Made by a program: the position numbers and the translations under genes. Under the pieces are notes generated by a model. That model was not told the origin of the DNA. It did no database searches and was given only the letters and a program-made list of their open reading frames with translations. Below are positions 26,691 through 57,317 of a DNA stretch of 64,000 nucleotides, in pieces; position 1 is the stretch's first letter; each line of letters opens with the position of its first letter. Origin of the DNA: Halichondria panicea (Eukaryota; Porifera; Demospongiae; Suberitida; Halichondriidae); NCBI RefSeq assembly GCF_963675165.1, contig NC_087393.1, forward strand, positions 4,097,502 through 4,161,501. Direction: 5' to 3'.

Positions 26691-27119
26691 CTAGTGTTCA
26701 AGCTGGCGCTGTGCTAATGCCTCTCGCCATGTTTTTGCTTTCGCTCAAAAGCATTAAAGTGTTATCTATAATGAATTTTATATTAAAGTTAGCTTATCTA
26801 TATAAAGTCACTGAGAAGAAAAGACTTATTTACATGCATCTATTGTTGTTATTTATTGTATTATGTGGCTTACAAGGACCTCAAGAAAGAAGAAAATTGA
26901 TTCTTCCAGGATCTGTAGTCCAGTGTATATAATATCTAAGAAGAAAAGACCTGTGTACATGCATATTGTTATCTATATGGTAGTGTTTTGTGGCTTACCG
27001 GGCCCTCAAGACAAAGATGATTCTGCCAGGAGGATCTGGATCTGGATCTTGGATATTATTTTCTCACATGGGGAATGAGCGCGCATGCGCATTACATCCA
27101 CAAGAATAATTAAAGGGTG
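26691..27119. repeat. Dispersed repeat, copy 1 (copy 2 starts near 52195)
   Basis: Starts ACTAGTGTTCAAGCTGGCGC and includes TTAGCTTATCTATATAAAGT. The same sequence returns at 52201-53160, where it is opened by a 592-bp TIR element (52292-52883) and by the MULE (53170-56913). This copy lacks both, so it shows the pre-insertion state. It contains an internal ~75-bp approximate duplication (GAAGAAAAGACTTATTTACA and GAAGAAAAGACCTGTGTACA). Confidence 0.8.
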
Positions 27120-27128
27120 TGTCCAAAG

Positions 27129-27766
27129 CAGAGGAGGGAGGACACGATTAACCTTAGCTCTAATTAGCTAATTATTGTGACATTCTTTGAACAATTCATC
27201 TTTTCTTTCTTTATAACCTCTACATATTGGACACAAGAGCTAGAGCAAAGTAAGCCTTTTCTCCTACTGGAGGTACCCCTATGGCCAAGTTGTCAGGACC
27301 TGAAGGTAATAGGACCCCTATAAGAAGCACCTCAAGTACTCCTATCTCTAAGATCCCTGTGAGAAGCATCCCAGGCACTCTGATCTTGTCTCTGTGAGAA
27401 GCACTCTTGATCCTGGAGACAGGATCCCTATGAGGAGCACCCCAGGCACTCCTGTCTCCAAGATCCCTGTGAGAAGCACTCCTGTCTCTGTGATAAAGCT
27501 GCAACATGGAATTGTTTAGTTCAGAGCGTCTCCAACATGAAGAACATCAATGACACTAACAGTCTCAGCTTCTAGCACCCCTTTATTTGTATGGTTTGCT
27601 CTGTGCCTGCAAGAATTGCCTGTCACTCATACTACAGTACTGTACTGTGTGTCCCAATATGTAGAGGTTATAAAGAAAGAAAAGATGAATCATTCAAAGA
27701 ATGTAATTAAAAGGTCGCGACAATTAGCTAATTAGAGCTAAGGTTAATCGTGTCCTCCCTCCTCTG
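27129..27766. mobile_element. 638-bp long-TIR element, 9-bp target duplication
   Basis: The ends are perfect inverted repeats for 45 bp, starting CAGAGGAGGGAGGACACGAT, and remain similar for about 120 bp. TGTCCAAAG flanks both ends (27120-27128 and 27767-27775). A related unoccupied site is visible at ~56929-56940. The interior (~27250-27500) carries a degenerate ~40-60-bp repeat (GATCCCTGTGAGAAGCA recurs) that could encode Ser/Thr/Pro-Val-rich peptides. The long TIRs and 9-bp duplication fit the Mutator superfamily; there is no transposase. Confidence 0.8.
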
Positions 27767-52883: not shown

Positions 52884-53260
52884 ATAATGAATTTTATATT
52901 AAAGTTAGCTTATCTATATAAAGTCACTGAGAAGAAAAGACTTATTTACATGCATCTATTGTTGTTATTTATTGTATTATGTGGCTTACCAGGACCTCAA
53001 GAAAGAAGAAAATTGATTCTTCCAGGATCTGTAGTTCAGTGTATATATATAATATTTAAGAAGAAAAGATCTGTGTACATGCATATTGTTATCTATATTG
53101 TTATATGGTGGCTTACCAGGCCCTCAAGACAAAGATGATTCTGCCAGGAGGATCCACAGGAATAATTAACGCTGTGACTATTCTTACGGCACTGTAAAGG
53201 CTGCTTACCTTGCTATATTTATGGCATAGTGAACTTTCACCTCTGGCTCTGGCAACTTCC

Positions 53261-53362
53261 TAGCCTCGATTCCCGGCCGAATTACAAATGTAATCAAGCG
53301 GCCTGGAATCGAGGCTAGCAACTTCCTAGCCTCGATTCAAGGCCGGCGTGGGATAGAGGCTA
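53261..53362. mobile_element. Two tandem micro-palindromes of the TAGCCTCGAT family
   Basis: 53261-53317 and 53327-53362 both begin TAGCCTCGATTC and end with GAGGCTA. The 9-mer GCAACTTCC stands before, between and after them (53252, 53318, 53363). This implies repeated insertion at the same 9-bp target or duplication of one insertion. They sit between the MULE TIR and its start codon. Confidence 0.85.
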
Positions 53363-53400
53363 GCAACTTCCTGTAGCAAGTTACCCGGGGTATAATCAAT

Positions 53401-56400
53401 ATGGCACTAGACTTGCTCCATCTACAGAATGGCCAGGAGTTCTGCTCTTTCGAGGAACTGGCCGAAATTATTAAGAAGTGGGAAGAGGTTAATTTTGTTA
53501 CTCTTTACACAAGAAGCTCTAGGAGTATTGAAGCAGCTAGAAGAAGGGCTCCAAAGAGAACTTTTCTCGACAAACTGAAGTATTCAGAAATTGATTATGC
53601 ATGTGTACATGGAGGCAGAGAATATAAGTCCCAATCTACACAGAAGAGGCTGTGCCAAAAGTAAGAATTCTGACTGTGCTTATTAATTTTGTACTGTACC
53701 AGTAGACTATAGTTCTAGCTTATTAATACTCTCTGCATTATCAGCTATCAATGCTTTGACAGTGACTATAATTATGACGTCCATGACCTCGTGTACTGTG
53801 CAATAGGCGTATAATTATTCGCGATAATAATTACGATAGTACTTGTTAACGTATACCAAATCACAGGACATTTTTAAAGGATTGCCCATTTGTGATTAAG
53901 ATTAAGACAACACTGGATGGAGAAAAGTTATACATCAAAGAAATTCGTGGAGAGCATAATCATGATTTGTCTGAGGTAAGCAAGTGGGGTTGAATCAGAA
54001 ACATGTCTGCTTAAGTGTTCATGCACAGTATACGTCTTAAATTACACTTATAACAAGCATAATTATACTTAGCTAGCACCTTAATCCATGTAGGAAATAT
54101 TTCGTCATATGCCAAAGCAACGGCGCCTGGATTCTGAAACAAAGGATGAAGCAGTAAAACTCCTCAAACTCAGAGCTAACAAAAAGCTTCTTCAGAATCA
54201 CTTGATGAGTACAACTGGTAAAACAGTGACACTCAAAGATCTTCATAATATTGCAGCGAGAAATGTACCAAAGTTTCGGAATGATTTTCGTGAGCTAGTA
54301 GAAGAAATGAAGAGCATTAAAGGTGAGCTTTAAATAATCATAACTTAATAATGTGTCGAATGTGATCACGTTTTTCTTTTTTCGGTTGTAGATTCAACTG
54401 TTACTGCATTTGTTGACGAAGAGAGTATGTTAAAGGCTATATACTTTCAGACACCTGAAATGAAGAATATATTTGCTTCTTATCCTGAACTCCTCTTGAT
54501 TGATGCTACGTACAAACTAAACGATCTGCATATGCCTCTTTGTATGTTTTAATGGTAGTCGATGGGAATGGTGAGAGTGAGATTGTATGTCTGTGGCTGA
54601 CACAATTTGAAGATAAAGAAACTATTACAAAACTTGTTGAAGAATTCAAGAAGTATAATTCAGATTGGATTTCAACAAAATGTATTATGTCCGACAAAGA
54701 TATGACTGAGAGAACTGTTTTAGGCGAACAATTTCCACAGTCCAAGCTTTTGATTTGCTTATTTCATACTCTGCGCACTATGAAAAGAGAGATATCCTGC
54801 GAAAAGCTTGGCATATCACAGGGAGAAAGGAGTATGTGCTTGGAAATATTGTTGAAAATGGTGTATGCAAGAGACGAAGAAGAGTATAGTAAGCTCTTTG
54901 ATGAGTTAAAGAATGGACCACAACGACTTGTGGAGTACTTTGAAAATAATTGGCATAGCATTCGCCATGAATGGGTGGACGGTTTGAAAAATGCAACTTG
55001 CAACTTTATGAATCGCACCAATAATAGAGTTGAAAGCATCAATCAGAAATTAAAGTCTGTAATTTCTCGGTATTCAGGAGTTACTCAGTTTTTCCAAGAT
55101 TTGATGAAGTGTTTGAACACTCTGAGAATTGAGCGTGATCATAGAGCACTTGAAATAGTAATGAAAAGACGTGTATCATTACATGACTCTGATACATCAT
55201 TTGGATGGTATATGTCTTTTTTGACACCATACTCCTTTGAATTTGTAAAAGACCAACTAGAAAACGCCAGTAAAGTACAGATTATTCAACAAATTGATGA
55301 AAAATCGTGTGTATTGCGATCTCAAGGCCGATCTATAACAACTACTATTGACTCTTGTCCCTGCGGCTTTGTTTCTGCTATGAAACTGCCATGCAAGCAT
55401 ATCTTTGCAGTGCGCACATCCCAGTCTCTATCTGAGTATGAGGAATCTCTCTGTGCTGAAAGGTGGACGCAAAAACATTTTACGAGTCATCATCGGGCAT
55501 ATGTACCAACTGATATGAGTGATTGTGATGTGGAAAGTCATATTGATGATACGATTCAAATCTCTACATTAGAACCGGCAAGAGCAGTGCTCTCTGAGCA
55601 GCAAAAATACAGAAAATCTTTCAATATAGGCCAACGCTTATGCCAGCAGCTCTCTACTTTTGGTATGCACGACTTCAATGAAGGAATAGAAGTCCTGCAA
55701 TCAATAGCGCATCTCTGGGAAAAAGGCAAAAAGGTTGTCGTTGGAGAAGCAGCAGGTGTAATTTCAGTATGAGACTGTTACGCATTTTATTATTGTGTAT
55801 AATTATATACTCACTGTTTTACAAGTGTTTTGGCAATATTTGCCAAATTTTTGTATGTATAGTTCGGCATTAGTAGTAGGCATCTTATAGGGTTTTATAC
55901 AGAGGGGGGGGGCGCTCTAGAAATCTGAAAAATTAATGATTATGTCATAACCTAATGTATGGGCATTTCTCGTTTCTTTTTTCTTACTAGACACTGGTGA
56001 GGATCTATCAAGCGACAGTGACGATTCTATTTCTGATCATATTAAAATCCCACCTCCCATCCTGACAGATAAAGACACAGTTGGTACGTTTTTCGTTGTT
56101 GTAACGTGTGTTGCATCACCCACACTCACCATGTATAGATCTGTTACAGAAAGCACCTGATTCTCGACAGCCATTGTCTACCATTCAAGATAATACTTTT
56201 GCGATAAAAATGCCGCCTGCAATCAAGAAACGAGGTCGACCAAAAGGTGCTGGACTAACAGTGATTGGCCTTCCTAAAAAGAAGGGAAAAGCTTCTTCCA
56301 AACCGAAGGCATTTGTACTAAAATCAGAATGGGAGAAGACAAAAGGTGTGTACTTCCTTTATTCCAGATTCTGTGTTATTTATACAGTCTTCCCTTCTCC

Positions 56401-56770
56401 TTCTGTAGTTATGCTCAACTGGTTTGTCGATGAAGAAGTCACTGAACGAGCAGTGAGAGGTGGGGACCTTATTGAAGAACATGAAGTGGAATGTTGCCCC
56501 GAGAAAATACCCAGAAAGTGCTTGGATGACAATGTTTGCATTGCTCAAATCAAAAAATACTTCACTTTTGACGGCTGGAGTTTACTTCAAAATAGCATAG
56601 ATACTTTGCTTGTTCATGGGAATTGGACTTGCTCAATATGCTGCATTGATTTATCTACAAGTGAAAGCATTGGCTGTGATAGTTGTCTTGGATGGTTTCA
56701 CTTGAAGTGTGTTGGATTGAAGAACGCTCCTAAAAGCAAGCACTGGTTTTGTAGATCCTGTCATATTTAA
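53401..56770 (+). CDS. MULE transposase with SWIM, AT-hook and PHD motifs (8 exons, one frame break)
   Basis: Exons: 53401-53660, 53867-53975, 54094-54322, 54392-~54543, ~54544-55755, 55991-56083, 56139-56345, 56409-56770; all introns are GT-AG with matching phases. The junction at ~54540 is not an intron but a frame change (two bases extra or one missing). Domains in order: a FAR1/GCM-like zinc-binding start (DCPFVIKIKTTLDGEKLY...EHNHD); the MULE DDE core with LLIDATYKLN, CIMSDKDM and NNRVESINQK; a SWIM finger (CPCGFVSAMKLPCKHIF); an AT-hook-like KKRGRPKGAG; and a C-terminal PHD finger (CSICCIDLST...CDSCLGWFHLKC...WFCRSC). It would bind the TIRs and catalyse cut-and-paste transposition. The related vertebrate genes are ZSWIM proteins. 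The ATG at 53401 lies ~150 bp inside the TIR. Confidence 0.9.
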
Positions 56771-56922
56771 TTTTTATGTATAATATTGATTATTAACTCA
56801 TCTATTATAGCGCATGCGCATAAATTATTATTATGGTCAGAGGTGAAAGTTCACCATGCCGTAAGAATAGCAAGGTAAGCAACCTTTACAGTGCCGTAAG
56901 AATAGTCACAGCGAATAATTAA

Positions 56923-57317
56923 AGGGTGTGTCCAAAGAGATCAATTTCACAAATGGCTACTGCTAGCTAGCTGTTTTTTAACAGATATTTTCTGAGTATT
57001 GTAGCTAACAAAAAGCTAGCGCTTTAGTGCAAGGCTAACTCATATGTTGAATAGAAAGTTTGTGCGGACAGATGATGCTATGAAAGATTCTGAAGAGACT
57101 GTAACAGCCTTCAATGTGAGTTAAACTAGCCATAACTCGAAAAAGAAGCTTTAGTTTGCTAATCCACGAATCAAAATCCAAGAGAACGTAGCTAGAAGCC
57201 TATAGAAGCTGTTAGTTTTCGTCGCATTGCAACCGTTGAGCAGTTACTGCTGGAATACACACACACACACACACAGTCAGCTTTACCGTATCCCTCGTGC
57301 GGCTACGCCTCGAGGCA
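56923..57317. other. Continuation of the dispersed repeat after the MULE
   Basis: Starts AGGGTGTGTCCAAAGAGATC, matching the sequence on either side of the 27129-27766 element. A (CA)n run lies at 57259-57276. It ends CGGCTACGCCTCGAGGCAT, where copy-B sequence resumes. No coding region. Confidence 0.5.

Follow-up and report, generated by a model that had tools for sequence, protein, structure and literature searches.

The window analysed here is a 64 000-nt stretch of the Halichondria panicea genome (contig NC_087393.1, positions 4097502-4161501), and searches for further copies covered the whole 131.5-Mb genome (39 contigs). At positions 53170-56913, the window contains a 3744-bp MULE with terminal inverted repeats (TIRs), a perfect 9-bp target-site duplication (TSD) and, elsewhere in the same window, a paralogous empty site (Table 1). 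The element is a MULE on account of its RNaseH-like DDE transposase, its TIRs and its TSD of ~9 bp.

Table 1. Features of the MULE and of its empty site, in window coordinates
Feature	Position	Strand	Basis
Paralogous unoccupied target site, with single AATAATTAA at 27105-27113	27096-27128	+	Flank alignment
Left target-site duplication, AATAATTAA	53161-53169	.	Sequence
Left terminal inverted repeat, 76 nt, begins CGCTGTG	53170-53245	+	At least 18 genome matches
66 nt of nested repeats, both direct and inverted, seen in window copy	53252-53317	.	Alignments
Coding exon 1 (ZSWIM3_N)	53401-53660	+	Pfam, splice model
Coding exon 2, contains HNH; by eye, end of the N-terminal zinc-binding region	53867-53975	+	Splice model
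Coding exon 3	54094-54322	+	Splice model; acceptor at homologous place in L012 and L013
Coding exon 4, RNaseH-like core (IDATYK, MSDKD, NNRVES) and SWIM motif (55353-55412)	54392-55755	+	Pfam, motif
Coding exon 5, acidic linker	55991-56083	+	Splice model
Coding exon 6, AT-hook core KKRGRPKG (56225-56248)	56139-56345	+	By eye
Coding exon 7, element-specific region, then C4HC3 PHD finger (56624-56761) and stop	56409-56770	+	Pfam, PDB alignment
Right terminal inverted repeat, 76 nt	56838-56913	-	Pairs with left TIR
Right target-site duplication, AATAATTAA	56914-56922	.	Sequence

Boundaries, copies and target sites

The first-pass annotation had proposed that TIRs, a 9-bp duplication and an empty site define the element, and each of these was recovered: the 76-nt TIRs are 93 % complementary, the AATAATTAA pair is perfect and a single AATAATTAA is present at 27105. 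The left flank of the element matches window positions 26768-27036 (94.5 % over 273 nt), with ~60 nt of additional sequence in the empty site between the end of this match and 27105, while from the right TSD onward, 24 nt are identical to 27105-27128. When the joined flanks were aligned against 26901-27200, a score of 133.6 was returned, compared with a maximum of 39.6 among 300 shuffles. The 25-mer spanning the site, GAATAATTAAAGGGTGTGTCCAAAG (27104-27128 and 56913-56937), is found at 581 places in the genome (287 + 294) with up to two mismatches; hence, the empty site is one copy of an abundant short repeat. The reversed control of this 25-mer had no genome occurrences at the same tolerance. 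The abundant short repeat containing GAATAATTAAAGGGTGTGTCCAAAG was the target of the window element's insertion.

Matches to the left TIR, of which there are at least 18 in the genome, comprise seven two-ended copies (the window copy and L001-L006) and four single ends (L007-L010). Perfect 9-bp duplications flank the window copy, L002, L003, L004 and L005; that of L001 has one mismatch, and no 9-bp duplication was found at the ends of L006. The 9-bp duplications are likewise perfect at L012 and L013, which belong to a sister family. The association of 9-bp duplications with these TIRs, which the first-pass annotation had put forward as a point on which the element could be challenged, therefore holds, the duplication being perfect in seven of the nine two-ended elements (seven of the window's family and two of the sister family), mismatched at one position in one and absent from one. 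Of 200 000 random pairs of flank 9-mers, 572 were identical. In the eight elements with duplications (L006 excluded), A or T makes up 68 of the 72 duplicated bases; the same flanks would predict 42.9, and none of 100 000 draws reached 68. The element thus displays the hallmarks of cut-and-paste transposition, with A/T-rich 9-mers as its targets.

The window copy and L002 are nearly identical (13 differences over 3668 aligned sites, plus 7 indels); the window copy is a recent insertion, at present inactivated by a single frame break. The 66-nt stretch of nested repeats seen in the window copy is absent from the aligned sequences of L001, L002 and (64 nt) L005, and the BLAST pieces of L003, L004 and L007 are compatible with its absence, with L006 unreadable at that place. 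Readings of the element as a captured host fragment or a domesticated gene were rejected on account of its several copies with TIRs, TSDs and lesions of their own.

Gene structure and domains of the transposase

In the window copy, the gene model has seven coding exons separated by GT-AG introns, one fewer than the eight originally counted. Its single frame break falls in exon 4, at about 54531-54552. One-by-one comparison revealed that all four other near-full copies (L001, L002, L005 and L006) share one difference from the window copy near 54536, and in L002, one frame runs through the point of the break. The claim of a single break stands, and the break is peculiar to the window copy among these five. 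Each of the other four carries further lesions of its own, leaving none of the five near-full copies intact.

The Pfam scan, which covered exons 1, 3, 4, 6 and 7, returned matches over the cut-off for ZSWIM3_N in exon 1 (PF21599, E value 6.9e-11), for the ZSWIM1-3 RNaseH-like domain on either side of the break (PF21056, E values 1.6e-15 and 1.8e-20), for MULE (PF10551, E value 1.1e-14) and for PHD in exon 7 (PF00628, E value 1.8e-6); a MULE match upstream of the break was below the cut-off. A putative SWIM finger is visible as a CxC-x9-CxH motif, with a sub-threshold Pfam match (E value 0.11). Together with the AT-hook core recognized by eye, these matches bear out the description of a MULE transposase with SWIM, AT-hook and PHD domains. 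Within the core, D, D and E residues were located by eye in IDATYK, MSDKD and NNRVES, respectively, and these we take to be the catalytic residues.

Two of the domains link the window transposase to ZSWIM1/ZSWIM3-type RNaseH proteins, which share PF21056 and the N-terminal PF21599 with it, and its putative SWIM finger has counterparts in the SWIM-bearing MULE groups Ghost and Curupira (PMC6446971). The window transposase differs from these two groups in its PHD finger, a domain named in the main text of that paper on two occasions, both for Rehavkus.

The PHD exon in a sister family and PHD fingers in a second MULE lineage

The terminal PHD exon can be assigned to the element, because the TIRs of a sister family enclose it, three splice acceptors are placed alike and its divergence carries a signal of purifying selection. 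The TIRs of L012 start CGCTGTG, as do those of the window's family, and enclose the N-terminal region, RNaseH core, SWIM motif, AT-hook and exon 7, with 36-56 % protein identity to the window's family depending on the exon. Exons 2 and 5 have no match in L012, and the core of L012 is itself broken. L012's family has a further, more degraded copy in L013, while L016 and L018 possess a third TIR type; segments related to the AT-hook exon 6 are present in L012 and L016. Matching places were found for the acceptors of exon 3 (L012 and L013), exon 4 (L012 and L016) and exon 7 (L012, L013 and L019), with no AG at the exon 7 acceptor place in L017.

Between the window element and L012, pN is lower than pS in exon 7 (0.375 and 0.716), in the PHD finger (0.342 and 0.735) and in the core (0.433 and 0.761), values of which only the direction counts since pS is saturated; L012 and L013 differ by too few changes to inform on this ratio. 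The exon 7 changes between the families point to purifying selection. MULEs do acquire host gene fragments (PMC6446971), and exon 7 might accordingly be imagined as a captured passenger of the Pack-MULE kind, a reading that we regard as very improbable given that a diverged family, bounded by TIRs of its own, also has the exon and that the exon appears to have been constrained. In addition, the matches spanning the whole of exon 7 fall in element copies or in fragments that look like the element, whereas alignments to other host PHD sequences are largely confined to the finger, with a few weak exceptions that extend further (e.g. C11:6169729 and C8:4915687).

PHD fingers also occur in a second MULE lineage of this genome. 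PF21056 returned 30 genome matches, and 9 further loci plus three more copies of the L022 family were examined, with the Pfam scan of the further loci covering all except L028 and L029. A strict PHD pattern was present in three of the nine (L022, L023 and L030) and in all three extra L022-family copies; by this pattern, L025-L029 have no PHD. In L022, a single open frame of 809 codons covers the MULE core and closes with a C4HC3 finger at the C terminus. The L022 family includes two elements, 8961 and 8792 bp long, that are bounded by perfect 40-nt end repeats; one of the two has a 9-bp duplication and the other an 8-bp one. An array of 9-bp units follows the L022 frame, with inverted copies of the array near the opposite end; L023 has the same ending as L022, again with arrays downstream, and in L030, the PHD finger lies in the next open stretch.

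The single frame of L022 bears on a further reading of the window gene, in which exons 1-4 or 1-6 would encode the transposase and a separate PHD protein would start at an ATG two bases past the exon 7 acceptor. We consider such a pair of genes unlikely, as the second lineage joins core and PHD in one frame and the exon 7 acceptor is placed alike in L012, L013 and L019 (the exception being L017, as noted above).

The L022 lineage resembles Rehavkus, a MULE-type group of arthropods and annelids (Dupeyron et al. 2019, PMC6446971), since a PHD and a minisatellite are part of the description of Rehavkus in that paper: a 9-bp TSD, TIRs, a PHD in the transposase and a minisatellite before the 3′ TIR. 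The loci of this Rehavkus-like lineage are L022 (with L036 and L037), L033 (with L038 and L039), L031, L032, L023 and L030. The window element shares the 9-bp TSD, the TIRs and the transposase PHD finger with Rehavkus but differs in having seven exons, an AT-hook and no minisatellite before the 3′ TIR (no tandem repeat scoring 50 or more was found in 53000-57000). It is not Rehavkus; in the in-genome tree, the L022 lineage branches apart from the window's family, Rehavkus itself being compared by description only. In the available text of six papers (PMC6446971, PMC13359780, PMC8086355, PMC7204232, PMC12238850 and PMC7221964), Rehavkus is the sole MULE-type group to which a PHD is ascribed; the absence of others carries little weight as subscription papers and Repbase reports fall largely outside this set.

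In an unrooted tree of 11 rows, all from this genome, the two PHD lineages form separate branches (support 99/98 and 100/98). Presence of a PHD is compatible with a single change on this tree (ultrafast bootstrap 89, SH-aLRT 93), with the label of L024 taken from a partial match 0.8 kb downstream. That match (L024:4560-4721), a partial PHD downstream of the MULE frame, has tryptophan, methionine and tryptophan at TAF3-like positions. In the MULE genes L025 and L027, an ALS2CR8 domain comes first, and a SWIM finger lies in the next open stretch. A multi-copy repeat of ~3.4 kb (L034:1200-4622, L035:2161-5606 and L021; 98 % alike between two copies) joins an Ulp1-type protease to a PHD finger. 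No relatives were found in viral contigs scanned with the L002 core and the L022 protein, and a PDB sequence search returned one chance-level match for the window core and none for the L022 protein.

Candidate histone reading and a proposed mechanism

Searching PDB sequences with the window finger yielded 83 matches at E values up to 0.1. Among the best 60 of these, TAF3 and ING1-5 are at the top, followed by PHO23, ORC1B, YNG1, png2, YNG2, CFP1, BPTF and PHF2, with proteins that read H3 in other states, UHRF1 and PHF21A among them, lower down. Most of the top matches are, we presume, H3K4me3 readers. For TAF3 and BPTF, this activity is documented (PMC12238850, PMC7221964). The L012 finger retrieved ING fingers first and TAF3 next. 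The search is not sharply selective, because TAF3 is also among the six best matches of the finger from an unrelated Ulp1-PHD element, after KMT2C, PHF23 and PHF13.

TAF3 holds K4me3 by D877, M882, W868 and W891 and contacts R2 by D889 or E905 (PMC12238850). The C4HC3 zinc ligands are present in the window finger by pattern search, and the tryptophans corresponding to W868 and W891 are kept in the four families with a readable finger (the window's, L012/L013, L018 and L019). At the positions of D877, M882 and D889, the window finger has L, S and L, as read from the alignment. Its likeness to the TAF3 and ING fingers thus lies in the C4HC3 ligands and the two tryptophans, as judged by sequence only. 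Two tryptophans can suffice, as the finger of KDM5A uses two (PMC7221964). Zinc ligands have been lost in two relatives, a cysteine in L001 and the histidine in L019. A structure model of exon 7 built from a 7-row alignment had a mean pLDDT of 42, too low for use. The tryptophans of the L022 finger are arranged differently, one lying three residues before the third zinc ligand and the other one before the histidine's neighbour (HWAQC, LWLH), and its best PDB matches were weak (KDM5B, E value 0.011; KDM5A, E value 0.055).

Reading of methylated H3K4 by the window finger is likely on these grounds. The first-pass annotation had gone on to suggest targeting to particular chromatin marks, a suggestion that is plausible in that TAF3 and ING fingers are the nearest solved PHDs and two cage tryptophans are kept, and unproven in that the two other TAF3 cage positions and the R2-contact aspartate differ.

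We propose that the element is a cut-and-paste MULE whose PHD finger tethers it to methylated H3K4, and as an account of the whole, this is in our judgement somewhat more probable than otherwise. The N-terminal zinc-binding region and the SWIM finger would bind the CGCTGTG-ended TIRs, and the DDE RNase H domain, the residues of which are present, would do the cutting. Insertion takes place into A/T-rich 9-mers, possibly aided by the AT-hook. The C-terminal PHD would then recognize H3 tails methylated at K4 and so hold the enzyme at active promoters, a step to which we give an even chance.

The finger might instead be a general protein- or histone-binding or dimerization module, serving transposase assembly or nuclear retention without reading methylation, with the A/T-rich targets arising from the core and AT-hook alone. 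Only two of the four TAF3 cage residues are kept, a strong A/T preference needs no chromatin, and the Cys-rich domain of the transposase-derived PiggyMac binds H3 whatever the lysine methylation (PMC8086355). Against this, the two tryptophans are kept across families that are about half identical, and TAF3 and ING fingers are the nearest solved domains by sequence; we therefore hold a general module to be possible but rather doubtful.

For the tethering step of the proposed H3K4-guided mechanism, RAG2 offers a precedent (PMC7204232). In RAG1-RAG2 and RAG-like transposons, a DDE recombinase acts with a PHD that reads methylated H3K4, the mouse RAG2 PHD preferring K4me3 and that of sea urchin RAG2L K4me2 (PMC7204232), and a similar arrangement is predicted for the window element. 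The systems are not homologous, and the RAG PHD belongs to a separate, kelch-propeller protein, whereas that of the window element would be part of the transposase itself. PHD-bearing transposases may mark a broader trait, because Rehavkus, tabulated from arthropods and annelids (PMC6446971), appears to have a relative in the H. panicea genome.

The means by which DNA transposons choose their chromatin have yet to be settled. Few transposases are known to us that carry an obvious histone-mark reader, and the element described here may steer itself to active genes via its PHD finger. The prediction is a sharp one, involving two tryptophans, one histone peptide and one insertion-site map. If true, it would parallel the H3K4me3 reading of RAG2 in V(D)J recombination within a single transposase. 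Tentatively, one polypeptide could combine a MULE recombinase with a methyl-H3K4 reader, as a self-contained counterpart of RAG1 and the RAG2 PHD that guides transposition to active chromatin; the trait might be old, with two MULE lineages ending in PHDs that have two tryptophans in two cage layouts, and histone-guided insertion might be basic to a large group of animal MULEs.
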